The notes below the pieces were generated by a model. The model had not been told where the DNA came from. It did no database searches and saw only the letters and a program-made list of their open reading frames with translations. A DNA stretch of 53,945 nucleotides from Bryobacterales bacterium. GTDB taxonomy: Bacteria > Acidobacteriota > Terriglobia > Bryobacterales > Bryobacteraceae. Location: NCBI GenBank assembly GCA_947467395.1, contig CANIIC010000005.1:1-53945 (forward strand). The letters are read 5' to 3'. Shown here one piece after another: positions 2,740 through 48,058 of the stretch. Both the position numbers and the translations under genes were made by a program. Each line of letters starts with the position of its first letter. Positions within the stretch are counted from its first letter, which is position 1.

Positions 2740-5001
2740 CTAAAAGGCCTTACCCCTAATTCGACTGATGAGTCGGACGGACTCGCGTGCGGCCATCCTT
2801 GGATCGAAAGAGGTGTCTGAGATCCCGGAGATGACACGAGTGACATTGTGATCCACTGTGCCATACTCTGACCAGGACCGAACCGCCACATTGGTCAGAT
2901 ACACGGAGTAAGCGCGATGTCCTGAACCCGGACGCTCTCCGATGATATGGAGAATCGCTTTCATCCTATCACTTTCGTCCAGTGATCCGAACAGCAACTC
3001 CCCTATTCTGTATCCAACCCGGACCCGCCCGTTTCGGACCACGATCGGTTGTGGACCTAGCCGAACTCCTCCCAGTTCTCCCCGGAGTTCGTCCAAGAAG
3101 GGCTCCAGATGGCCCTCGTCAAGGAGAGACAGTGCATCGAGACCGTCCGAGATAACTATCTGCACATCTGGCTGAAACTCACAAATCTCTCGAAGCGCTT
3201 GCTCGGAGCCTAATGCAAGCTGCTCACCTGAGATCGGGTGCAGGACGTAGTCTTCGCGATTGCGGGACAGCGTTCTAAGCGAAACCGCGCCCAAACGCGA
3301 CTCGAAATCTGGTGGCAACTCTGCCCAGATGCATTTGCGAGCGTCAGAATACAGAGACCGGACTTTTCGATCTAAGACGGGCTCCAGATCCCACGGCTTG
3401 CTGCCATGCCCCTCCGCAAGGTCGACGCCCCGAGAGCGCACACGTTCGATCTGCGTGCGAGCCTCAGCAAGCATCTCTCCATCAGACCGCCGGTCTCCTT
3501 TACGGCGTCGATACTCCAGATAGACCCGTTCCGGCCGACCGAAGTTTGGTCCGGGTTGATCATTGGGATCTAAGACGCCAATGGATCGGAAGAACGCTGC
3601 CATCTGGTCGTCGATTTTGAATCCAAACTTCTTGCGCAATCGGACGTGATCCTGGAAAGCAGTCGTGACATAACTGAGCATGGGATCGTTCTTTGTCGGC
3701 AAGGCCATGAGATAGGCGGGATTCGCCGGCATGATCTGATCCATGCACCAATCGAGATCATCCGGATCGATGTCCATGTGAAGCGTCGAGCAGATATCGA
3801 GACCTATGGTCAGCCCGTGGAGTTTGCCCATCAGCGTGTCTTCAAGGCAGCAGCGGACCAATTGCTTCGGGGTGCGGAATACCTCAGGGCCAATGAATCC
3901 GGCCACGTCATTGAGATGCACCCATGGTTCAGGGGGTCGGCCGGCTTTTCGCTTGGCCGCACTCACTTCATTTCGCAGGGCTCTCGCAAATCCGTACTTG
4001 CGCGATTCATGCATGACGATGTCGAACCCCTTAGAATGTCCGTTTGAGCCATCCGCGCCTTGTCCGGTCTCGAAGTACAAGCCATACTTCCCAGCTCGCT
4101 GCGCTGCGTGTGCGACCATCTTGGCCACGGTAAGATCGAACGTCTTATTCGCATCTGCGACCCCGGCCAGGCTCTGGAACCAAAGCGCCGTCGACCCTGG
4201 ATGCAGCGATTCCGCTTGAGCCTGAATGTCAATGTGTGCCAGGACACAATGCGGCAGAACATCTTGAAGATCAAACGTGTTCAGGATGTCCGCCAGTGCG
4301 GCTTCAATCTCGCTAACGGACTCTACGTTGCTCGAGACCGGATTTGTCCCCAGAACGACATCGCCCACCCCGTAGCAGAAGCCGTCAAATACCTGCCATT
4401 GAATGTCTTCGATATCGTCAGTGGGTGAATTTGGCTGAATTCGAGCCCCAAGGTAGCCCTTTGCGCCGATAGAAGAGCCCGGCAGCGGGTTGTAGATCTT
4501 ACGACTTACCGCGATCAGTTCGTCGTTGGTCATCAGCTTGACCACACAGGCAATTACATCGCTAGGCAGGCCGGGCATCACCTCACGAATTGGCACTTCA
4601 GAGGACTTTAGGAGGAATTGCTTCAACTGCCCGAAGCTCCAATCCGCAACCTTTCCCCAAACCGTGCGATCGAGGGCGTCTTGGATGTAGAGCGAAACCG
4701 AATCTTCGTAGACAGGATTCTCAATCACGTACCGGAGTTGCGTCCCCGCAAGAAGACGACGAGCAGTGCGGCGCGAGGCTTGATCCGGAGAGGCTACGCC
4801 AGCGGCCGCATCCCCTTCTTTGAACTCGTTCGCTGCTCCTAAGAGTTGGCGATAAATCGTAAGGCGAACGTCGGCTGGAAAGTGCCGCAGATACTCTCCC
4901 AGATCCCTCACCGAAGCACCTGCTTGTATAGCTGCGGCATTTCCTTCGGAGGGACTCGTAACCGCGCCGGCAGCGACCGTCAGGAAAGTGCGTCGGTTCA
5001 T
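2740..5001 (-). CDS. eutBC: Fused ethanolamine ammonia-lyase (EutB-EutC) with Tat-like N-terminus
   Basis: Adenosylcobalamin-dependent deamination of ethanolamine to acetaldehyde and ammonia is normally done by separate EutB and EutC chains; here both are in one 753-residue protein. Residues about 50-480 match EutB. The active-site set can be placed by motif: Arg187 and Gln189 (GARIQPN), Asn220 (GTNPVSSNV), Glu311 (LYFETGQGAD) and Asp402 (IGLDICS), equivalent to R160, Q162, N193, E287 and D362 of the enteric enzyme. Residues about 570-745 match EutC (VISDGLDALS, GERPGSGH). The N-terminus MNRRTFLTVAAGAV is a Tat-like signal (RRTFL plus a short hydrophobic stretch, AAA near 22-24), odd for a cytosolic B12 enzyme. 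No other eut, reactivase or microcompartment gene is nearby. Family assignment is firm; the location is inferred. Confidence 0.88.
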   Translation of the reverse strand: MNRRTFLTVAAGAVTSPSEGNAAAIQAGASVRDLGEYLRHFPADVRLTIYRQLLGAANEFKEGDAAAGVASPDQASRRTARRLLAGTQLRYVIENPVYEDSVSLYIQDALDRTVWGKVADWSFGQLKQFLLKSSEVPIREVMPGLPSDVIACVVKLMTNDELIAVSRKIYNPLPGSSIGAKGYLGARIQPNSPTDDIEDIQWQVFDGFCYGVGDVVLGTNPVSSNVESVSEIEAALADILNTFDLQDVLPHCVLAHIDIQAQAESLHPGSTALWFQSLAGVADANKTFDLTVAKMVAHAAQRAGKYGLYFETGQGADGSNGHSKGFDIVMHESRKYGFARALRNEVSAAKRKAGRPPEPWVHLNDVAGFIGPEVFRTPKQLVRCCLEDTLMGKLHGLTIGLDICSTLHMDIDPDDLDWCMDQIMPANPAYLMALPTKNDPMLSYVTTAFQDHVRLRKKFGFKIDDQMAAFFRSIGVLDPNDQPGPNFGRPERVYLEYRRRKGDRRSDGEMLAEARTQIERVRSRGVDLAEGHGSKPWDLEPVLDRKVRSLYSDARKCIWAELPPDFESRLGAVSLRTLSRNREDYVLHPISGEQLALGSEQALREICEFQPDVQIVISDGLDALSLLDEGHLEPFLDELRGELGGVRLGPQPIVVRNGRVRVGYRIGELLFGSLDESDRMKAILHIIGERPGSGHRAYSVYLTNVAVRSWSEYGTVDHNVTRVISGISDTSFDPRMAARESVRLISRIRGKAF

Positions 5002-5651: not shown

Positions 5652-6836
5652 GTGACACCCAACGTAGGCGGTTTGAATGCTGGCGTCTACCGCGGGAGCA
5701 TCCAGGTGCGGTACGTGGAACTGCAGGTGGTCAGAACGGTGTCGGTCACCTTGGTCCTGCTTCCGTCGGGTGCGGCACCTTTCCCGAGCGCACTTCCGGA
5801 AAAGTGTGTCCCAACCCTGCTTTATGCGACATTCGACTCAGTAGCCGCGGGCTTCTCAGGAGTTGCCGGCTGGCCGTTAACGATTGGGGCCTCAGTATTA
5901 GATGACTGTGGGCATCCAATGAATTCGGGGAGTGTGGTCGCCAGCTTTTCCAATGGGGACTCTCCTCTCATGCTCCGCTCTAAGAAGGACGGTTCTTGGT
6001 TCGGCACCTGGCAGCCTAAAAGCGGTTTAGATCACGTCGTGATCTCGCTGCATGCAGTCGAGGATTCAAACGCTCTTTTCGGTACGGCAGTGACTAGTGG
6101 AAGCATTTCGTCGGCTGCGGAGGTTCCGATCGTTGCTTCGGACGGAGTCGTTAGCGCCGCCAGTTTTTCCCGTGGGGAAGCGCTGGCGCCTGGGAGTTTC
6201 ATTTCCATCTTGGGTAAGAGACTTGCCAACCGAGCCGTGACCGCCTCCGCCATCCCGTACCCGACGACACTTGGCGAAACGCAGGTGTTGCTGGGTGGGC
6301 GTAAGCTGCCACTCCAGTTTTCTTCGGACGGTCAAGTCAATGCGATTATCCCCTACAACGTACCGATCAACACGATGCAGCCATTGATAGTTGTGAACGG
6401 ATCCACAATTTCTCAGCCAGAATCTGTGACCATTACTGCCGCACAGCCGTCAGTATTTACCCTGCGTCAAAACGGCAAGGGGGCTGGCGTAATCTATGGG
6501 GTGAGGTCGAATCGCTCTCCATTTCTGATCACTGCATCCGACCCGGCGTTGGCGGGTGATATCTTGCTGATTTACGCAACAGGGCTCGGCTCCGTGTCAA
6601 CTGTAATTGCGGCTGGGGATGGAGCCGTGGGCGTGAATCGCACGCAGAATCCGGTTGGGGTGACTATTGGCGGTAGAGACGCCGAAGTGTTGTTCTCTGG
6701 TCTTGCTCCCGGTCTTCCGGGTGTCTACCAGTTGAACGTTCGAGTTCCCGATGGACTTGAGGCCTCTGAGGAGGCAGTGATTGCGATTTCGAGCACGGGG
6801 CAAAAGAGCCCTCCTGTGACTATTGCCGTCCGTTAG
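5652..6836 (+). CDS. 5'-truncated TIGR03437-domain (Solibacter C-terminal domain) protein
   Basis: The frame is open from 5613, after a TAA at 5610-5612, and the first usable start is a GTG at 5652 (394 codons) with no ribosome site. It opens in the middle of a BACON-like beta repeat (GLNAGVYRGSIQV) and has no signal peptide, although this family is normally secreted. A central beta domain follows. The last about 215 residues (from SFSRGEALAPGSFISILG to the end) form the TIGR03437 module with VNAIIPYNVP, LLIYATGLG and GVYQLNVRVP. The 5' part seems to have been replaced by repeat copy A, so this is probably a non-expressed gene fragment. The molecular role of TIGR03437 proteins is unknown. Confidence 0.7.
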   Translation: MTPNVGGLNAGVYRGSIQVRYVELQVVRTVSVTLVLLPSGAAPFPSALPEKCVPTLLYATFDSVAAGFSGVAGWPLTIGASVLDDCGHPMNSGSVVASFSNGDSPLMLRSKKDGSWFGTWQPKSGLDHVVISLHAVEDSNALFGTAVTSGSISSAAEVPIVASDGVVSAASFSRGEALAPGSFISILGKRLANRAVTASAIPYPTTLGETQVLLGGRKLPLQFSSDGQVNAIIPYNVPINTMQPLIVVNGSTISQPESVTITAAQPSVFTLRQNGKGAGVIYGVRSNRSPFLITASDPALAGDILLIYATGLGSVSTVIAAGDGAVGVNRTQNPVGVTIGGRDAEVLFSGLAPGLPGVYQLNVRVPDGLEASEEAVIAISSTGQKSPPVTIAVR

Positions 6837-18726: not shown

Positions 18727-19335
18727 ATGCAGTCGCCAAGCGAAAGACAGAAGGATCTCTACCAGCTGGCCGAGTCCCAGGGTGGGTACTTCACCACGAA
18801 GCAGGCCGCCTCACTCGGATACTCGAGCAGCAAGCGGATCTATCATGTCCGCGCCGGCAACTGGACTCGTGAACACCGGGGCATCTATCGTCTTGCCCGT
18901 TTCCCCGAACCTCAGCGATCGGACCTGATTCTTTGGTGGCTGTGGTCGCGCGACCGCAGCGACCAACCCACCGGCGTATTCAGCCATCAGACAGCCCTCA
19001 GCCTCCACGAACTCACCGACGCTAATCCGGCTCGACTCGACCTCACTGTGCCGCGAGGCTTTCGCCGCACTGCTCCAGTTCCGAAGGCACTTCGGCTCCA
19101 TTACGACGAGGTCCCACAGAAAGATCAAGAAATCCTGCATGACGTCCCAGTGACAACTGCTCTGCGGGCGACTCTGGATGTCTGGAGAGAAGGATCGCTT
19201 CCGAAGCCCACGATCCGCGAAGCTTTTCTCGAGGCCATGAAGCGAGGTAGCATCACCCAGACTCAGGTGGCTTCGGCCAAGAGGGATCCCGAGTCAGCCG
19301 AAGTGCTTGCCCAACTACAGAACGGGACAACGTGA
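18727..19335 (+). CDS. abiEi: AbiEi-family antitoxin of a type IV toxin-antitoxin system
   Basis: The 202-residue protein has an N-terminal winged-helix domain (QGGYFTTKQAASLGYSSS, then RGIYRLARFP) followed by the AbiEi C-terminal region (GVFSHQTALSLHELTD, HDVPVTTALRATLDV). In known AbiE systems this antitoxin binds DNA and represses the operon. The stop codon overlaps the start of the nucleotidyltransferase gene by 4 bp (GTGA), the usual translational coupling. No clear Shine-Dalgarno precedes the ATG; the promoter lies very near, so the mRNA may have a short leader. The pair is flanked by repeat families and may be an acquired module. Confidence 0.85.
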   Translation: MQSPSERQKDLYQLAESQGGYFTTKQAASLGYSSSKRIYHVRAGNWTREHRGIYRLARFPEPQRSDLILWWLWSRDRSDQPTGVFSHQTALSLHELTDANPARLDLTVPRGFRRTAPVPKALRLHYDEVPQKDQEILHDVPVTTALRATLDVWREGSLPKPTIREAFLEAMKRGSITQTQVASAKRDPESAEVLAQLQNGTT

Positions 19336-20183
19336 AACCCGGCCGAAAATATGCCACTGGCGCGGCGTTGAGGATTGCTCTCGAAGAGCGCCTCAAACGG
19401 ACGGCTCGCGAAGAGGGAATCGATCTGCAGCGCCTTCGCCGACAGGTAGCATTCGACCGCTTTCTTGCTCGGCTCTTCCATGCACCCAATCCGAACTGGG
19501 TGCTGAAGGGTGGCTACGCGATGGAACTCCGGTTTCAGACTGCGCGTGCCACCAAAGACCTCGATTTCACAGTTCGCGCCCTGCCCGCCAACGCTACTGA
19601 TATGATTCTTACGGAGCTACAAGATGTGGGAGCAAACGACCTCGAGGATTATTTCTCCTTTCGAGTTGCAGAAGCAGTGATGGATCTGGATGGAGCCCCT
19701 TATGGAGGGTCGCGCTATCCGGTCGAATGCATTCTTGGAGGGCGCACCTTTGTAAAGTTCCATCTTGACGTCGGAGTCGGAGACATTGTTGTGGATCCGC
19801 CGGAACAAGCGGTGGTGCGCGACTGGCTGGGTTTCGCCGGCATTCCGGTTCCGACTGTTCCGATGATCCAAAGGGAGCAACAGTTCGCCGAGAAGCTCCA
19901 CGCGTACACCCTGCCGCGTGGGGCGGCCCCCAATAGCCGCGTTCGAGACCTAGTCGACATGGTCCTCCTCGTTCAGTCCCAGACGATGGAACTAGGTCGT
20001 GTTGCCGAGGCGCTGGAGGCGACGTTCGGCCGAAGGGACACGCACCCGGTCCCGGACACCCTCAATCCACCGCCTGAGGATTGGGATGAGCCCTTCGCAA
20101 GACTCGCGGCGGAGTGCAACCTAGAACTGGCCGCTTCCGAGGCGTTCCGGGTTCTGGAGGATTTTTACGGGAACCTACCGTAG
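19332..20183 (+). CDS. abiEii: AbiEii-family nucleotidyltransferase toxin
   Basis: This 283-residue DUF1814/AbiEii protein has the nucleotidyltransferase signature KGGYAMELRF (59-68) followed by RATKDLDF (72-79), with GG at 60-61 and metal-binding Asp76 and Asp78, and a second conserved block EKLHAYT through RVRDLVDMVLL. Related toxins (MenT) add nucleotides to tRNA acceptor ends and halt growth; that activity is known for the family and inferred here. The GTG at 19332 overlaps the antitoxin stop. Key residues look intact, so the toxin is probably functional. A late segment of about 40 residues (HPVPDTLNPPPEDWDEPF) fits the C-terminal part of longer members. Confidence 0.87.
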   Translation: MKPGRKYATGAALRIALEERLKRTAREEGIDLQRLRRQVAFDRFLARLFHAPNPNWVLKGGYAMELRFQTARATKDLDFTVRALPANATDMILTELQDVGANDLEDYFSFRVAEAVMDLDGAPYGGSRYPVECILGGRTFVKFHLDVGVGDIVVDPPEQAVVRDWLGFAGIPVPTVPMIQREQQFAEKLHAYTLPRGAAPNSRVRDLVDMVLLVQSQTMELGRVAEALEATFGRRDTHPVPDTLNPPPEDWDEPFARLAAECNLELAASEAFRVLEDFYGNLP

Positions 20184-20525: not shown

Positions 20526-22670
20526 TTACTGCTTTCCTTGTCCTCGTCCACGACCGGTGGCTGCGGGCCTCGCCTCTGGGAGTGCGAGGGCCACGAGTTC
20601 CACCGCATCGCCCGCGCGCACGGCTACCGCGATGTACTGCCGGCCTGCCTTCGTGTAGGTGACAGGGAAGCCCGTCGTCGGACCCGGTAACTGGATCTCG
20701 GCGACCACAGCGCCCGTCTTCTTGTCCCACGCGCGGAACATCGGGCTGGCACCACCTTCGCCGCCGAACAGCAGCGTGCTGGTGACCAACAGTCCGGTGC
20801 CTCTGGTCGGAGCTCCGGTATTCGGAATGTTCACACCTTGCAGCTTCGCGTTTCGCTTGATGTTGTCTGGCGTGTTGCCATGCGGCACCATCCACAGGCG
20901 CTCACCCGTCTTCAAATCGATCGCGGAGACCCGCCCATAAGGAGGCTTCAGGAGTGGAAGACCGAACACCGTCGTTGGCGGGGTCACTGCTTGACCGCGC
21001 GTGTCGTGGTACAAAACGCCCGTGCCGGGCGATCCCGGCGTGACCTGGGCGCGATACAAGGTGTTCTCACTGGCGACGTAGAGGACGTCCTCCACTGGAT
21101 CGACCGCACCGCCAGGCCAGTTGATGCCGCCCACTGCGGAAGGTGCAGTCAACGTGCCCATGGTCCCATCCGGACCACCCGCCACCGACGGCGGCGTATA
21201 GAGTCCACCCAAGCGGAACTGCTTCGCTACACGAAGAGCCTCCGCCTTGATCTCCGGCGTGAAATCGACCAGGTCATTCTCAGTCACCCCCTGCGGCACG
21301 AGCGCGACCGGCTTGGTCGGGAACGGCTGCGTGGGCGAGGTCCACTCGCCGGGGACATCGGACTTCGGGACAGGCCGTTCCTCGATGGGCCACACCGGCT
21401 TGCCCGTCGCACGGTCCAATACGAAAGCGAATCCTTGCTTGGTCAGCTGGATGACTGCCTTCACTGGCTTGCCATCGGCGGTGATGTCCGCGAGAATCGG
21501 CGCGGTCGGCGGGTCGAAGTCCCAAATATCGTGGTGCGTCGTTTGGAAGTGCCACACCTTCTTGCCCGTCTTCGCGTTCAGTGCAATCACCGAATTCGCG
21601 TAGAGGTTGCTGCCGGGGCGGTAGCCGCCATAGTAGTCGCTAGTCGGAGATTCCGCCGGGATATAGAACATGCCCAGCTCCGGATCTGCCGTCGCCGGAG
21701 CCCAGAAGCCCCCGTTGCCGGTGTAGCGGTTCGAATTCTCGCGTAGTTCGGGGTGATCGATCGCCCATTTGTTCAGGCCACCGGGCACGTTCCAATTCTT
21801 AGTGTCCGCCGTGAGCCAGCTTTCAGAGCCCTCTTCTCCCGGACGGGGAATGATGTTGAAGCGCCACAGCATTTTGCCGGTCTTGGTGTCGTAGGCGACG
21901 ACGTCGCCCGGAATATTCATGGGCCACTGTTCGTTGATCGAAGCGCCAGGAAGGTTCGGCGTGGAGCCGGTGTGCATCGAAATCGAAGAGACCAGGACGT
22001 TGCCCACGATCGCCGGCGGAGAGGAGTTCGCTACGCGGCCATCGCGCGGCAGCCCTGGCCGCTCGTTCCACCGCAGGTTATCGCCCATATCGACGACGCC
22101 GTTCTTACCGAAGCTCGTCACCTGTCGCCCGGTCTTCGCATCAATCGCGACCAGCATGTAGTTGCCCATGACGACGAAGATGCGCTGGTCGCCCGCGCCA
22201 TCGGTCCAGTAGCTGACGCCGCGGCCGGAAGTTCTGGCCAGCGGGTCAATGATGTCGTTCCATTTCAACAGGTCGCCCGTGGGGCGCCAGTGCCAAAGCA
22301 ACTGCCCGCTGGCCGCATCGATGGCGACCACATCGCGGGTCGCGCTGGCGGTGGTGTACATCACGCCATCCACGATCAGCGGACTGACCTGCATCCCGGT
22401 CGCCGGACGGGGACCTAAATTCCGCGTTGAAAAGCGCCATGCCACGCTCAGACTTCCCACGTTGCTGGCATTGATTTGATTGGCCGGCGAATACCGGGTG
22501 GCGCCGGAGTCACTTCCGAAAAACTTCCATTCGGTGTCCCCTTTGGACGTGTTCCCACCGGCCTTAGATGCGTTCCCGCCGGTCTGCCCAGGCAAGATGG
22601 CGGTCAGCCCCAACGCGATCCCAAGCGTAACTACCGAGGCCGCAAGCAATCTCTCTCTTATGACGGGCAT
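20526..22670 (-). CDS. Secreted PQQ-dependent dehydrogenase (glucose dehydrogenase-like quinoprotein)
   Basis: The 714-residue protein has a signal peptide (LLAASVVTLGIALGLTAILP) and an eight-bladed quinoprotein propeller with repeated DAxTGxxxW-type blade ends (AIDAASGQLLWHW, AYDTKTGKMLWRF, ALNAKTGKKVWHF, AIDLKTGERLWMV). The active-site region TTHHDIWDFDPP places the catalytic Asp after Trp, as in membrane-type glucose dehydrogenase. WPIEERPVPKSDVPGEWTSP is a family signature. It should oxidise a sugar or alcohol in the periplasm. It has no membrane domain and no cytochrome domain, so electrons must leave through another carrier. AAGGAG stands 7 nt before the ATG. The C-terminus is basic (TGRGRGQGKQ). 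The gene at 52603 is a paralog. Confidence 0.87.
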   Translation of the reverse strand: MPVIRERLLAASVVTLGIALGLTAILPGQTGGNASKAGGNTSKGDTEWKFFGSDSGATRYSPANQINASNVGSLSVAWRFSTRNLGPRPATGMQVSPLIVDGVMYTTASATRDVVAIDAASGQLLWHWRPTGDLLKWNDIIDPLARTSGRGVSYWTDGAGDQRIFVVMGNYMLVAIDAKTGRQVTSFGKNGVVDMGDNLRWNERPGLPRDGRVANSSPPAIVGNVLVSSISMHTGSTPNLPGASINEQWPMNIPGDVVAYDTKTGKMLWRFNIIPRPGEEGSESWLTADTKNWNVPGGLNKWAIDHPELRENSNRYTGNGGFWAPATADPELGMFYIPAESPTSDYYGGYRPGSNLYANSVIALNAKTGKKVWHFQTTHHDIWDFDPPTAPILADITADGKPVKAVIQLTKQGFAFVLDRATGKPVWPIEERPVPKSDVPGEWTSPTQPFPTKPVALVPQGVTENDLVDFTPEIKAEALRVAKQFRLGGLYTPPSVAGGPDGTMGTLTAPSAVGGINWPGGAVDPVEDVLYVASENTLYRAQVTPGSPGTGVLYHDTRGQAVTPPTTVFGLPLLKPPYGRVSAIDLKTGERLWMVPHGNTPDNIKRNAKLQGVNIPNTGAPTRGTGLLVTSTLLFGGEGGASPMFRAWDKKTGAVVAEIQLPGPTTGFPVTYTKAGRQYIAVAVRAGDAVELVALALPEARPAATGRGRGQGKQ

Positions 22671-33451: not shown

Positions 33452-34468
33452 CTAGAGCCGTTCGGCGATCACTCGGTCGCCGCGACCGCGTTTTTGCACT
33501 AACGCCTCCACCGCCTCGAGCATCTTCTGTGGACCGCAGGCGTAGATGTCGATGGGTTCCTCGGCTTTCGCGAGATACGCTTCGAGAGCTGCCGGGGCCG
33601 TGCCTTGGAAACCTTGCCATTCTCCCTCGGGCGTGGTGACGGCGAGCGTAACGCCCAACTGGGGCAGTGCAGCGGTAACCGCTTCGACGTCGGCCGGGGG
33701 CACCAGTTCGGTCTCGCGATTGGCGCCGAAGATCAACTGCGTGGGTTGCGCATCCTGGAATTCTCCCAGATGGCGGAGCATCGAAAGAATGGGAGCCAAG
33801 CCGCACCCGCCGCCGACAAAACAGCGCGGGCGAACGCTGGCTTCGTCCAGGATGAAGCTGCCCGAAGGCCCGCGCACGGTGATGGTATCACCGACCTTGG
33901 CCTGCTCGCGGAGCCAGGTTGAAAAGGCTCCGTTGGCTTGCAGGCGAATCAAAAAGTCGAGCCGGCCTTCCCAGTTGGGCAGGTTCGCCAGCGAATACGC
34001 GCGACGGATCTCCGTACCTGGGATGGTCAACTCCATGTATTGGCCAGGAGAGAATTCGACGGCCGTTCCTAACTCCGGATCGGGCTGCAGTCGCAGCGTG
34101 AGCGCTACGGCGTTTTCCCAGGCCGGTGTTATGGATTCGATCACCGCTTGCCGCACGGGAACCTTGTAGCGCAGCACTTGCGCCTGATCGTAGGGCAGGG
34201 CAACCCGCAAGTTCTCATCCGGCGTACAACAGCACAACAGCACTTCTCCCGGAACATCGGTGCGCAGGGCCGCACTATTGTGCGGACCCATGGTGTACTT
34301 TCCTTCGGTCACGCGCGCGTGGCAGAGGCCACAAGTGCCTTCGTGGCACATGGCGGGGAGAAAATACCCCGCCGCTTCTGCAGCGCCCAGAACGTTGTCC
34401 GTCTGGGCGCAGGGAAACGGAAGCTCGGCGCCATCGCGCGTGACCAAGGTGACGTTGTGTTCAGACAT
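33452..34468 (-). CDS. hcr: 2Fe-2S/FAD NADH oxidoreductase, partner of Hcp
   Basis: The 338-residue protein has an N-terminal plant-type ferredoxin domain (Cys41-x4-Cys46-x2-Cys49 and a cysteine in LLCCC at 79-81), then a ferredoxin-NADP reductase-type FAD domain (RRAYSLANLP, the RxYS motif) and an NAD domain (FVGGGCGLAPI, YACGPQKML). It has the order of benzoate-dioxygenase reductases (ferredoxin first), whereas E. coli Hcr carries its ferredoxin domain at the C-terminus. Located 3 bp after hcp, it should feed electrons from NAD(P)H to the hybrid cluster. The gene symbol rests on context. Confidence 0.82.
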   Translation of the reverse strand: MSEHNVTLVTRDGAELPFPCAQTDNVLGAAEAAGYFLPAMCHEGTCGLCHARVTEGKYTMGPHNSAALRTDVPGEVLLCCCTPDENLRVALPYDQAQVLRYKVPVRQAVIESITPAWENAVALTLRLQPDPELGTAVEFSPGQYMELTIPGTEIRRAYSLANLPNWEGRLDFLIRLQANGAFSTWLREQAKVGDTITVRGPSGSFILDEASVRPRCFVGGGCGLAPILSMLRHLGEFQDAQPTQLIFGANRETELVPPADVEAVTAALPQLGVTLAVTTPEGEWQGFQGTAPAALEAYLAKAEEPIDIYACGPQKMLEAVEALVQKRGRGDRVIAERL

Positions 34469-34471
34469 ACG

Positions 34472-36127
34472 TTACGCGGCGGAGCGGCTCAACGAAGCGG
34501 CGATGTCAGCCTCCGCGGTGGTGATCGGCAATACGCCGAACTTGTCCACCAGCACGCCAACCAGCGCCGGGGTGAGGAACGCCGGAAGCGTCGGCCCCAG
34601 TCGGACGTTGCGCACGCCGAGCGCCAGCAGCGTCAGAAGGACCGCAGCAGCTTTTTGCTCGAACCACGACACGATCAGCGACAGCGGCAGTTCATTCACG
34701 CCGCACTGGAACGCATTGGCCAGCGCGAGCGCAATCTGAATCGCCGAGTAGCTATCGTTGCACTGGCCGACGTCCAGCAGTCTCGGCAAGCCACCGATGG
34801 TGCCGTGATCTTCCATGTTGAATCGGAACTTGCCGCAGCCCAGCGTGAGCAGAATCGTGTCCTTCGGGGCCTTCTCGGCAAAGTCGGTGTAGTAGTTGCG
34901 TCCCGGAGCCGCGCCGTCGCAGCCGCCGATCAGGAAGAAGTGCTTCACGGCGCCGCTCTTCACGGCATCGATGACTTTGTCCGCCACGCCCAGCACGGTG
35001 TCTTTGCCGAAGCCGATGAGGATTGTCTTCTCGGGCGCGGTTTCCGTGAAGCCGGGCAGAGCCTGGGCCGCCTGCACCACCGTCGCGTAGTCGTCGTGAG
35101 TGATGTGCCGCACGCCGGGCCAGCCCACCGGGCCCGTGGTGAAGATGCGGTTGCGATACGAAGCCTGCGGTTCGATCAGGCAGTTGGAGGTCATCACGAT
35201 CGGGCCAGGGAAAGCAGCGAACTCCAACTGTTGGTTCTGCCACGCCGTACCGTAGTTGCCCGCCAAGTTCGGGTACGCCTTCATCTTCGGATACGAGTGC
35301 GCGGGTAGCAGTTCACCGTGCGTGTAGACCTTGATGTCGGTACCCTTGACAGCTTCCAGAATCGCGTGCAGATCGCGCAGGTCATGGCCGGAGACCAAGA
35401 TCGCCTTGCCGGCAACGGGCGTGGTGCGCACGTTGGTCGGCTCAGGGATGCCGAAGGTGCCGGTGTTGGCGGCATCCAGCATGCCCATCACCTTGAAGTT
35501 CAGAGTTCCCAGTGCCAGAGCTTCGTTCAGGAGCACACCGATATCGGTTGGATCGCTCGCGAGCAGGTCCAGCGCATGCGCGATGCCCGCGCCCACTTCT
35601 TCGCTCGACTGGCCGAGGACGTCGGCATGGTGCGCATAGGCGGCCACACCCTTTAGTCCGTACAGCACCAACGAGCGCAGGCCCACGACGTCTTCCCCGA
35701 CGAGCTCGATGCCGGCCCGCACGGACGCCGGACTCGCCTGCTTTAGGAGTCCAGTTAGATCCCCAGCCGGAACAAACGCGGCCGGTCCGCCCAGCGGTGC
35801 GGCCCCAGGAGCCGCTGCTTCATAGGCCGCGCGCACGCGGTCGCGGATCTTCGCCGCCTCACCGATCAGTTCCACGAAGCGAGCCCGATTGAAGTTCACG
35901 TTGGTCAGCGTCGTGAACAGCCCGAAGAGAATGAAGTGGTCGGCAGCGGCGTCCGTTTTGCCGAGTGCATGCAGGCGCGTGGAGTACTGCCCGATGCCCT
36001 TCAATTGGTGGATCAGGATGTCCTGCAGGTCCGCCGTCGTCTCATCCTTGCCGCACACGCCCTTTGCGGTCGCACATCCCGCGCCGGTTTCGGTTCTCGT
36101 CGTCTGTTCGCACTGGTAACAAAACAT
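34472..36127 (-). CDS. hcp: Hybrid-cluster protein (NO / hydroxylamine reductase)
   Basis: A 551-residue Hcp. The N-terminal Cys pattern MFCYQCEQT through [12 protein letters not shown] is Cx2C-x11-C-x6-C, the class II pattern of enteric Hcp. Hybrid-cluster ligands lie in the later conserved blocks ([61 protein letters not shown]). The enzyme reduces NO to N2O or hydroxylamine to ammonia under low oxygen. The ATG at 36127 with a perfect AGGAGG decides the start; a longer in-frame reading to 36289 is rejected. An NsrR-like operator lies directly upstream. It forms an operon with hcr. Confidence 0.93.
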
Positions 36128-36145
36128 GATTCCTCCTGAGATTGA

Positions 36146-36168
36146 AAGCTGTAAATGAAATGCATCGT
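36146..36168 (-). promoter_or_regulatory. NsrR-like operator upstream of hcp
   Basis: On the minus strand, ACGATGCATTTCATTTAC followed by AGCTT matches the 23-bp enteric NsrR consensus at 17 positions, including GATGCATTT. It lies about 20 bp before the hcp start. NsrR controls hcp-hcr in enteric bacteria; that the same regulator acts here is inferred. Confidence 0.5.
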
Positions 36169-36197
36169 TGCAAGTGGGATGCCAAAATGAAGTGGCG

Positions 36198-36222
36198 ATC
36201 TCGCGCGGTTTTCTGGCGAGAT
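36198..36222. promoter_or_regulatory. T-N11-A dyad between hcp and the secreted-protein gene
   Basis: ATCTCGC (36198-36204) and GCGAGAT (36216-36222) are perfect complements separated by 11 bp. It may serve either divergent gene. The remaining about 200 bp to 36417 show no other feature. Confidence 0.35.
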
Positions 36223-36416
36223 GCGCGCCGGTTCGGCCTCGCGCTTTGGTCAGCTCGCTCATACGACTGGGCCCGTTGCGCGATTTCACCCGAAACGGGC
36301 GGCATGACGACCTATGAAGTCTCAGCGGTGCTCTCCGTGAGTCTTCGATTCGTGTTAGATTGATCCACGGTGGATCCGTGCACAGGTGTTGCCGTCTGCC
36401 CCAGGAGGATCAGGGA

Positions 36417-41949: not shown

Positions 41950-43611
41950 ATGACCGCTCGTTTGTTGGTGTTGCTCGCGATGTCCGCGTCCCTGTGGGCG
42001 CAAGGAGGCCGCGGCGGCGCCCCTAGTCGCGAAGCGCCGGTGAAACCTGTGCCGTTCGATCGCTTATTGAAGGCGAATCAGGAGCCGCAGAACTGGATGA
42101 CGTACTCGGGCAACCTGAGCGGCCAGCGCCACAGTGCACTGACGCAGATCAGCCCAGCGAACGCGCAGGATTTGGTTTTGAAGTGGGTCTTCCAATCGAA
42201 ATCGCTCGACAAGCATGAAGTGACGCCTCTGGTAGTCGACGGAGTCATGTACACCGTGCAGAGCCCCAACGATGTGTTCGCACTGGACGCGGCCACGGGC
42301 AAGACCATCTGGCAATACTTCCACAAACCGGCCGAAGGTACGCGCAATCCTTGCTGCGGCAATCTCACCCGTGGCGTCGCGATCGTTGGAGACAAGATCT
42401 TCCTCGCCGCGCTCGATGCCAAGATGATCGCCATCGATGCGAAGACCGGTAAGGAAGTGTGGAACACGCAGATCGCCGACTACAAGCAGCAGTACGCGAT
42501 GACTGTTGCTCCGCTGGTGGTGAAAGACAAAGTGATCTCCGGCGTCGCGGGCGGGGAACACGGCGTGCGCGGCTTCGTGGCCGCCTATGATGTGAACACC
42601 GGCAAGGAAGCCTGGCGCTTCAACACCGTGCCTGGTCCTGGCGAAGCGGGCTACGAAACCTGGATGGGCAAAGACGGCAAGCCCAACGATTCCTACCTGC
42701 ACGGCGGCGCTCCCATCTGGATCACCGGTACCTATGATCCGGAAACGAACCTCACGCTGTGGACCACCGGCAACGCGGGTCCCGACTACAACGGCGACAA
42801 CCGCATTGGCGACAACCTCTACTCTTCCTCGGTGATCGCGCTCGATGCAGACACCGGCAAGCTGAAGTGGCATTATCAGTTCTCGCCGCATGACGAATTC
42901 GATTGGGACGCGACGCAGGTTCCCGTGTTGGCTGACACCACAATCAAAGGCGTCTCTCGCAAGACGATGATGCTGGCGAATCGCAACGGCGTGTTCTACG
43001 TCCTCGATCGCAAGACCGGCGAGTTCCTGTCCGGCAACTCCTTCACCAAGACCAACTGGTACACGGGCTTCGACGAAAAGGGCCGCCCCATGCGCGCTCC
43101 CGGCATTCTGCCGACGGCGCAAGGGACCTTGGTGTATCCGGGCAATCAGGGCGGAACCAACTGGTACAACCCGTCCTTCAGCCCGACCACTGGCTTGTTC
43201 TACATCCCGGCGTGGGAGAACAGCTCCAGCACGTATAAAAAGGGCGAAGAAGTGCCGGAGTTCCACGATCAACAGAGCTTCATCGGCATCGGCCCGGGCC
43301 GTGGCAACACTGGCGATGACGTGTTTAGTTCGATCATCGCGATGGATCCCAGCACCAACCAACGCAAGTGGACCTTCCGGTTGTCGGCTCCGTCCACAGA
43401 AGGCGGCGTGCTGACGACCGCATCGAACGTATTGTTCGCTGGCGGACGCGACGGTCAGTTCGTTGCCCTGAACGCGGCGGATGGGAAGCTGCTGTGGGAG
43501 ACGAACCTCGGCCCCTCGGTTTCGGCGGGACCGATGACGTACATGGTCAACGGCAAGCAGTACATCAGCGTGCAGTGCGGAACGGGTTTGTACACGTTCG
43601 CACTGCGCTAG
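41950..43611 (+). CDS. PQQ-dependent alcohol dehydrogenase-like quinoprotein
   Basis: The 553-residue protein has a signal peptide (LLVLLAMSASLWAQ) and the methanol/ethanol dehydrogenase propeller. Vicinal Cys135-Cys136 (RNPCCGN) would form the ring disulfide over PQQ. Metal and catalytic residues are Glu203 (GGEHG), Asn275 (TTGNAGPDYNGDNR) and Asp318 (HDEFDWDATQ). Asp320, two residues after the catalytic Asp, is at the position that marks lanthanide-binding alcohol dehydrogenases; MxaF has Ala there. It lacks a fused heme domain, so a separate cytochrome (possibly the heptaheme protein nearby) would accept electrons. It differs from the other two PQQ enzymes of the window, which are glucose dehydrogenase-like. 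The GAGGC before the ATG is a fair ribosome site. Confidence 0.87.
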   Translation: MTARLLVLLAMSASLWAQGGRGGAPSREAPVKPVPFDRLLKANQEPQNWMTYSGNLSGQRHSALTQISPANAQDLVLKWVFQSKSLDKHEVTPLVVDGVMYTVQSPNDVFALDAATGKTIWQYFHKPAEGTRNPCCGNLTRGVAIVGDKIFLAALDAKMIAIDAKTGKEVWNTQIADYKQQYAMTVAPLVVKDKVISGVAGGEHGVRGFVAAYDVNTGKEAWRFNTVPGPGEAGYETWMGKDGKPNDSYLHGGAPIWITGTYDPETNLTLWTTGNAGPDYNGDNRIGDNLYSSSVIALDADTGKLKWHYQFSPHDEFDWDATQVPVLADTTIKGVSRKTMMLANRNGVFYVLDRKTGEFLSGNSFTKTNWYTGFDEKGRPMRAPGILPTAQGTLVYPGNQGGTNWYNPSFSPTTGLFYIPAWENSSSTYKKGEEVPEFHDQQSFIGIGPGRGNTGDDVFSSIIAMDPSTNQRKWTFRLSAPSTEGGVLTTASNVLFAGGRDGQFVALNAADGKLLWETNLGPSVSAGPMTYMVNGKQYISVQCGTGLYTFALR

Positions 43612-46954: not shown

Positions 46955-47869
46955 TTATGGATTCTCGAAGTAATCCTGATCCAGCCGCTTGAGGGTGTAG
47001 ATCTTCGTCGGAGCAACGCCCACGTCATGTTCGATCATCAGGGAAGCCAGCAACTTTCCGTCAATCAGCACAATCTTCTGTGGCATCGCTTCCACGAAGT
47101 CGGTCGCATCTTTGGTGAACGATGAAGTTGTGATGAACACGCCACGACTTGCGTGCTTCTTTGTGAGGCTCCCTGAGAACTTCATGATCTCTGGACTCCC
47201 GACAACATTACCCCACCGTTTTGCCTGAACGTAGATCACATCCAGGCCTAGCTTATCCTGCTTGATGACGCCGTCGATACCCCCATCGCCAGATTTCCCG
47301 ACGACTTTGCCCGCATCTTCCACCGAGCCGCCGTATCCCATCGCCACTAACAGGTCGACAACGATCTGCTCAAACGCAGCTGGTGCAACGCTCAAGAGCA
47401 CTTGGAGCAATTCTTCCGAAAGAGCGTCCCGAAGTATTTGGAAACTTGTGTCTAGTTGTTCTTCGGGCGTCTCTTTGTCGTTATCGACTGTCACTGCAGA
47501 TGGGTGTACCTCTTTGTCACAAGAATCGCCCTTGTTGTAAAAACCGACAAACTCTGGAAATTGCCGTAGACTCCTGGCTGTGATGGCTGGAGGGTTATTC
47601 TTCAAGAACGCCGTGCCGCGGTCCGTTATCCGGTAAACTCCTCGGGCTTTGAGCGCCAGCAGTTGTGCCTTGCTGAGATAGGCGAGTGCCCAAGCCACCC
47701 GATTCGCAAAAAGGGTGCTACCACTCTTGAGTTTCTGAGAGAGTTCTTCCGGGGTGAGATGAAAAGCATCGGCGATCAGTCCCCGAATTTCACTTACCGG
47801 GTGTTCGTTTCCATCTTCCATCAGGCGGAGAACTGGAAGCATCAGTGTTTGATAGTCCGGAATCGGCAT
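46955..47869 (-). CDS. mrr: Mrr-type restriction endonuclease
   Basis: The 304-residue protein has the Mrr N-terminal winged-helix domain (MPIPDYQTLMLPVLRLMEDG, PEELSQKLKSG) and a C-terminal Mrr catalytic domain of the PD-(D/E)xK fold: FEQIVVDLLVAMGYGG (Glu168), GDGGIDGVI with Asp199, and QAK at 215-217 (VQAKRWG). Such type IV enzymes cut methylated foreign DNA. The start is the ATG at 47869, from the conserved N-terminus; the frame runs open to 48025 without family similarity. No methylase is adjacent, as expected for type IV. It is a stand-alone defence gene. Confidence 0.88.
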   Translation of the reverse strand: MPIPDYQTLMLPVLRLMEDGNEHPVSEIRGLIADAFHLTPEELSQKLKSGSTLFANRVAWALAYLSKAQLLALKARGVYRITDRGTAFLKNNPPAITARSLRQFPEFVGFYNKGDSCDKEVHPSAVTVDNDKETPEEQLDTSFQILRDALSEELLQVLLSVAPAAFEQIVVDLLVAMGYGGSVEDAGKVVGKSGDGGIDGVIKQDKLGLDVIYVQAKRWGNVVGSPEIMKFSGSLTKKHASRGVFITTSSFTKDATDFVEAMPQKIVLIDGKLLASLMIEHDVGVAPTKIYTLKRLDQDYFENP

Positions 47870-48058
47870 TGAGTAAGGTTCCCCAGCCTCTTTCGTTGTC
47901 TGAATATGAAACAACAGTGTATCGTGCAGGCCGTCGAGGCACGGACACGCCTGTTCTAGAATTTGCTGCCCCAACATCTCCTTCTCTCCGAGCAACATCC
48001 GCCTCCACCCAACCTGTATCCCCACATCCTCGTGCTACCTCAGTCCCAAAGGAGCACC

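Follow-up and report, generated by a model that had tools for sequence, protein, structure and literature searches.

Does ethanolamine ammonia-lyase (EAL), an adenosylcobalamin (AdoCbl) enzyme, exist in a form made to work outside the cytoplasm? To our knowledge, AdoCbl enzymes are held to be cytosolic. A gene of a Bryobacterales bacterium raises the question. It lies in a stretch of 53,945 bp (contig CANIIC010000005.1, analysed here as a whole and called the window), in which an earlier note had recognized an EAL with both subunits in one chain behind a twin-arginine (Tat)-like signal, preferring export to a vestigial signal. A search of the open-licence literature (CC0, CC BY, CC BY-SA) turned up neither a report of an exported EAL nor a paper in which EAL and twin-arginine occur together. 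The word "ethanolamine" is absent from the main text of PMC3222651 and PMC11495043 (word search), and the passages of PMC11596606 that name an EAL of Verrucomicrobia as a nitrogen route do not remark on a signal.

Gene organization and domain content

The two subunit families were found, as the earlier note had it, in one frame of 753 residues; its strand had to be corrected, since the gene runs from 5001 to 2740 on the minus strand and the plus-strand reading of 2740-5001 has many stops. The features of the gene are as follows.

2740..5001, minus strand: single-chain EutB-EutC gene, 753 aa, ATG at 5001, stop at 2742-2740
4930..5001, minus strand: predicted Tat signal peptide, residues 1-24, MNRRTFLTVAAGAVTSPSEGNAAA (mechanical Tat test and homologs)
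4990..4995, minus strand: twin arginine R3-R4 (sequence; homologs pass the same test)
3556..4854, minus strand: EutB (catalytic) domain, residues 50-482 (Pfam), holding R187, Q189, N220, E311 and D402
2755..3363, minus strand: EutC domain, residues 547-749 (Pfam), with the GERPG motif at 688-692

Pfam matched EutB with an E value of 3.5e-137 and EutC with 3.9e-28 (98.8 bits against a cut-off of 25.8); no other Pfam family matched at E ≤ 0.001, the reductive dehalogenase family included. The protein passed the NCBIfam cut-off for EutB (571 vs 554 bits) but did not reach that of the EutC equivalog PRK05465 (68.6 vs 230 bits), i.e., judged by this profile the EutC half is remote. An in-frame stop four codons upstream makes M1 the earliest possible start; after it, translation could next begin from a GTG at residue 32. 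The window's genome (4.07 Mb in 278 contigs) contains one copy of the gene. Separate genes for the large and small subunits are a known feature of EAL, though not of its fold, whereas the window gene is one frame. An assembly artefact was rejected because the same architecture occurs in isolates, e.g., Roseivirga pacifica, Echinicola arenosa, Archangium and Sinorhizobium.

Distribution of homologs

Matches at E ≤ 1e-20 were obtained in 47 of 396 Acidobacteriota genomes, the window's included. Eight of the 396, again counting the window's, had the close fused form (E ≤ 1e-200), cut by a contig end in one case (G322). Seven of these carriers gave a single match and thus have no second, ordinary EutB; in G322 a further, partial match was obtained (query 11-165, 48%). 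In a ninth carrier (G330, locus L014) the gene is truncated, with RRDFLKL clearly visible at its start. Five more genomes presented a distant fused form (L009-L013), which shares the fusion but differs in its 36-39% identity, its length of 695-715 aa and the lack of a signal in front. The remaining matches were ordinary EutB or partial, and none came from the two further members of the window's genus in this survey.

When 84,980 species genomes were scanned using an alignment of seven sequences, 436 relatives were found. The homolog set combined the best 80 of these 436 with draws from individual phyla of at most 30 loci each, so that the counts given here lean to the closest homologs. Matches occurred in 21 of 294 Planctomycetota genomes (12 with the close form), 9 of 296 Bacteroidota (2 close) and 94 of 195 Myxococcota (56 close at E ≤ 1e-180). 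Among plasmids 149 records matched, 26 of them with query coverage of at least 80%; 25 of the 26 belonged to Sinorhizobium, Ensifer or Pararhizobium, with 49.7-51.7% identity, and the four plasmid N-termini examined (L176-L179, three distinct) read LTRRDLL or LSRRELL. Three Sinorhizobium meliloti records annotate the fused gene merely as eutB, "ethanolamine ammonia-lyase subunit EutB". Viral contigs contained no relative. In total, 174 loci (L111-L115 excluded) were reduced to 155 distinct proteins by removing duplicates, defined by identity across 300 residues starting at the KEGD anchor. The close fused set comprised the 116 proteins of these 155 that scored above 550 bits; L007, a fragment without its N-terminal side, was set aside.

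Active site and predicted fold

Alignment to chain 3abo_A equated R160, Q162, N193, E287 and D362 of E. coli EutB, which we take to be its catalytic residues, with R187, Q189, N220, E311 and D402 of the window protein, the five active-site residues that the earlier note had counted as present. All five, and the GERPG motif of EutC, were invariant in the 116 close homologs. Together with V326, F329 and L402, the five E. coli residues presumably line the substrate pocket, and these eight map to positions that are at least 99% conserved in the same set. An AlphaFold model built with 40 sequences had a pLDDT of 88 and a pTM of 0.88; its top PDB match was E. coli EAL (3abo_A, TM 0.88 by target), and the EutC half matched 3abo_B, 7xrm_B and 5ysr_D (TM 0.68-0.72).

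The window protein thus resembles EutBC of E. coli (3abo) and Listeria (2qez) in subunit families, catalytic residues and the folds of both halves, with 31-33% of residues identical to EutB chains of known structure. Unlike them, it is one chain with an export signal and no eut operon in the window, and EutA is usually missing in carriers (see below). In structure the EutB half is related to the diol and glycerol dehydratases (TM ~0.50 by target, 13-15% identity), which consist of separate cytosolic subunits.

Conservation of the N-terminal signal

The window protein begins MNRRTFL. In a mechanical test its first 24 residues presented RR and a short uncharged hydrophobic stretch, and by eye a possible cleavage site follows A-x-A at residues 22-24; residues 10-21 had pLDDT below 50 in the model. 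The test looked for R-R or R-K followed by any residue, a hydrophobic residue and then a 12-residue uncharged stretch with mean hydropathy of at least 1.0. It was passed by 83 of the 116 close fused proteins, the window's included, with R-K in 7 of the 83. Three more (L045, L071 and L073) failed the test, yet are Tat-like by eye; two (L008 and L107) carry Sec-like signals, and L106 is cut at a contig end, with the lipobox LNGC present. Tat or Tat-like signals hence make up 86 of the 89 signal-showing members. The signal is missing in the other 27 proteins, 25 from Myxococcota and 2 from Planctomycetota. Two close fused copies, one with the signal and one without, coexist in Archangium lansinium (L041, L064) and in Myxococcus sp. 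RHSTA-1-4 (L046, L054).

Chance occurrence of RR was rejected, as the test was passed by 6 of 936 internal windows of the same proteins, 68 of 2140 shuffled N-termini and none of 102 other-frame reads. Among other EutB proteins 2 of 38 passed (L014 and L141). L014 is a member of the close family, which leaves 1 of 37, and in L141 the motif lies before the likely start. This control is weak because the region under test comprises at least 30 residues in just 7 of the 37; its result shows that a leader is lacking in these proteins, rather than how often one arises by chance.

Positives by the test were spread over seven phyla: Acidobacteriota (9 of 10), Bacteroidota (13/15), Planctomycetota (33/36), Myxococcota (20/45), Pseudomonadota (4/4), Balneolota (1/1) and Ignavibacteriota (1/1), with two of two unplaced proteins in addition; the single members from Verrucomicrobiota (L045) and Thermodesulfobacteriota (L107) were negative. 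The co-conservation of RR and fusion, which the earlier note had proposed to look for in Bryobacteraceae, thus extends far past Bryobacterales, and its description of the N-terminus as Tat-like held for the RR, the moderate h-region and the homologs alike. In 19 of the 83 a regular expression located a lipobox behind the RR stretch (possibly spurious in L097 and L099), and LNGC-like lipoboxes missed by it were seen by eye in six Bacteroidota (L050, L055, L074, L075, L090 and L103); by motif, this extension is frequent in Myxococcota and Bacteroidota. A microcompartment encapsulation peptide was rejected on the lipobox and the RR pattern.

These data bear on the possibility that RR at the N-terminus is a relic or a misreading and that the functional protein is cytosolic, beginning at about residue 32, as in the signal-less paralog of Myxococcaceae. 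Ordinary EAL is cytosolic, the paralogs begin MSVSLRDVL near the place of residue 32, and the internal GTG found there would yield a cytosolic form much like the 27 signal-less homologs. However, the upstream stop leaves M1 as the first start, and a vestigial signal is hard to uphold because, with low nulls, it has been kept in seven phyla while its sequence drifted, with a lipobox added in at least two phyla and a Sec-like signal taking its place in two genomes instead of decay. We regard this possibility as very improbable, and the conserved signal argues for the export reading that the earlier note had preferred.

Phylogenetic relationships

Trees were built with FastTree on 153 rows and with an IQ-TREE mixture model on 64 rows chosen from them. 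In both, the close fused proteins formed one clade (100/99 in IQ-TREE), next to which stood the distant signal-less, cytosolic fused proteins as sister group, with ordinary EutB outside. The fused, signal-less sister group suggests that fusion is earlier than export. Phyla are intermixed, a pattern that suggests lateral transfer.

In the 64-row tree four changes separate exported from cytosolic proteins and, the sister group being cytosolic, they resolve most simply into a single gain and three losses: in L126/L127, in the Myxococcaceae/Archangium paralog and in L153/L154. The last pair is firmly nested in the signal-bearing clade (100/99); the other two lie inside a 42-row branch with a support of 88/98, and the bootstrap had not converged. 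Homologs without RR, which the earlier note had set down as counting against export, do exist (the 27 of 116 above), but those sampled in this tree sit inside the signal-bearing clade, and on this nesting export is probably ancestral to the close fused clade. In the FastTree tree two changes are enough and the signal-less L126/L127 branch first, so that the signal may have been gained later.

The Sec-like proteins L008 (from an acidobacterium) and L107 (from Desulfuromonadales) were placed beside Tat-bearing Sinorhizobium proteins in the 64-row tree, which suggests that it is export that has been kept and not Tat in itself. Sec-like signals would export an unfolded chain, which would then need AdoCbl outside; for this reason folding around the cofactor ahead of export, which the earlier note had read from the signal, is better taken as a proposal. 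These two relatives give some weight to export without cofactor, scavenged AdoCbl being loaded outside and Tat being used solely because the chain folds fast. Against it stand the predominance of Tat or Tat-like signals among the signal-showing members and the Tat-exported corrinoid reductive dehalogenases discussed below; we hold loading outside to be unlikely.

Gene neighbourhood

The EAL gene is flanked in the window by a convergent MFS transporter gene (601-2277) and a divergent gene for a TIGR03437 protein (5652-6836). None of the 31 ORFs scanned, out of 50 of at least 200 aa in the window, was another eut gene, in agreement with the lack of a eut operon reported earlier. Elsewhere the window presented a toxin-antitoxin pair of the AbiEi/AbiEii type (18727-20183, plus strand), a hybrid-cluster (prismane) protein adjoining an iron-sulphur flavin reductase (33452-36289, minus) and an Mrr-type restriction endonuclease (46955-48025, minus). 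Two PQQ-type alcohol dehydrogenase propeller proteins (20526-22670, minus, and 41950-43611, plus) are possible candidates for a periplasmic fate of acetaldehyde or ethanol. No cobalamin riboswitch or other Rfam RNA was found in the window or in L034, L038, L047 and L055, and ten more loci gave one match only, an unrelated int-alpA in L044.

Clustering of the ORFs around 80 loci (the best 80 of the 436 relatives) grouped 806 neighbours into 607 clusters and revealed no conserved pathway neighbour, recurring clusters being mostly confined to a single phylum or found at varying distance. Among the 73 directly adjoining same-strand ORFs (gap ≤ 300) just two loose clusters spanned two phyla, one with response regulators and one mixing kinase-like and binding-protein-like frames; the other recurring clusters were confined to one phylum. 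In a Pfam search of twenty near same-strand neighbours prolyl oligopeptidase (Peptidase_S9) occurred in two (L034 and L103), and no other catalytic family recurred. Individual loci showed a beta-propeller/di-haem cytochrome protein preceding the EutBC gene (L036) and a neighbouring TonB receptor (L090). On pSymA of Sinorhizobium meliloti (L179, 2290-14313) the exported-type eutBC, annotated merely as eutB, has adhP, phosphoketolase, histidine phosphatase, glycosyl transferase and glucoamylase genes upstream on the same strand.

Tat, cobalamin and reactivase genes in carriers

We searched 54 carriers, out of 55 chosen (six genomes and 49 loci from the best 80 of 436), of which at least two (the genomes of L048 and L053) show just a signal-less copy. 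TatC was present in 51 of 54, the window's genome included; G398, G413 and G425 (genomes of L036, L052 and L075) gave no match. In seven myxobacterial genomes TatC was matched in two pieces, as if carrying an insert. The PduO-type adenosyltransferase (PF01923) was found in 46 carriers, again including the window's genome, and the CobA-type (PF02572) in nine, four of them among the eight without PF01923, so that 50 of 54 have one or the other and four lack both. The idea that the Sec-type carriers have no adenosyltransferase was rejected: the genomes of L008 and L107 both lack PF01923 but have PF02572.

A full-length match to EutA was obtained in two carriers, G419 (E 6e-71) and G434 (E 3e-60). 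Matches at E ≤ 0.001 occurred in 32, and the other 30 were short, within positions 116-266 of the 475 of the profile, with 18.6-33.2 bits and open frames of 344-704 aa; although 21 of them exceeded the Pfam cut-off, we read them as putative FtsA-like relatives. In 22 of the 54, including the window's genome (G000), there was no EutA match at this threshold.

That 52 of the 54 carriers lack full-length EutA, that no pathway neighbour is conserved and that the EutC half is divergent would all fit an exported protein that acts on another amino alcohol, or a B12-binding envelope protein with the same fold. The near-complete conservation of the eight pocket positions in the 116 homologs speaks against such a change of role, which we consider distinctly unlikely.

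Discussion

We think it likely, from the conserved signal, intact active site and gene content described above, that the window protein belongs to a conserved branch of Tat-exported, single-chain, mostly reactivase-free and AdoCbl-dependent EALs that act in the periplasm. In known EAL the B12 site lies between EutB and EutC, and having both in one chain would keep the two sides of this site together during export. Tat would carry the chain across the inner membrane and would allow it to fold first, probably with loading of AdoCbl from the cytosolic adenosyltransferase; in many relatives the product would be a membrane-anchored lipoprotein. Outside the cytoplasm, phosphatidylethanolamine would supply the ethanolamine that the enzyme would convert to acetaldehyde and ammonia.

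Fold and chemistry of the respiratory reductive dehalogenase PceA are unrelated to those of EAL, and PceA is not known to be an AdoCbl radical enzyme. As described in the part of PMC10624902 that deals with these enzymes, PceA is likewise a corrinoid enzyme with Tat export, differing in its iron-sulphur clusters, and the group offers a precedent for Tat export of a corrinoid, a chaperone being bound to the signal while the protein folds. A second point concerns inactivation: according to the account of EutA in PMC5821096, catalysis inactivates the EAL complex and EutA, with ATP, removes the damaged cofactor and restores activity. Most of the carriers searched having no full-length EutA, each exported molecule would probably perform a limited number of turnovers, or else this branch inactivates less.

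The export reading supplies a reason for the fusion of EutB and EutC. Annotation as eutB alone, as in Sinorhizobium meliloti, can hide the exported fused form. Whether extracytoplasmic AdoCbl radical enzymes form a widespread class, namely single-chain EALs that take up AdoCbl in the cytoplasm before Tat exports them, in many cases as lipoproteins, and that work without a reactivase, so that AdoCbl would in effect be an exported cofactor, is a broader proposition that we find evenly balanced on the homologs compared here. A conserved branch with export signals, mostly without EutA, makes an AdoCbl radical enzyme in the periplasm a testable question, and with it how such an enzyme would cope with inactivation there and whether cells deliberately export B12.
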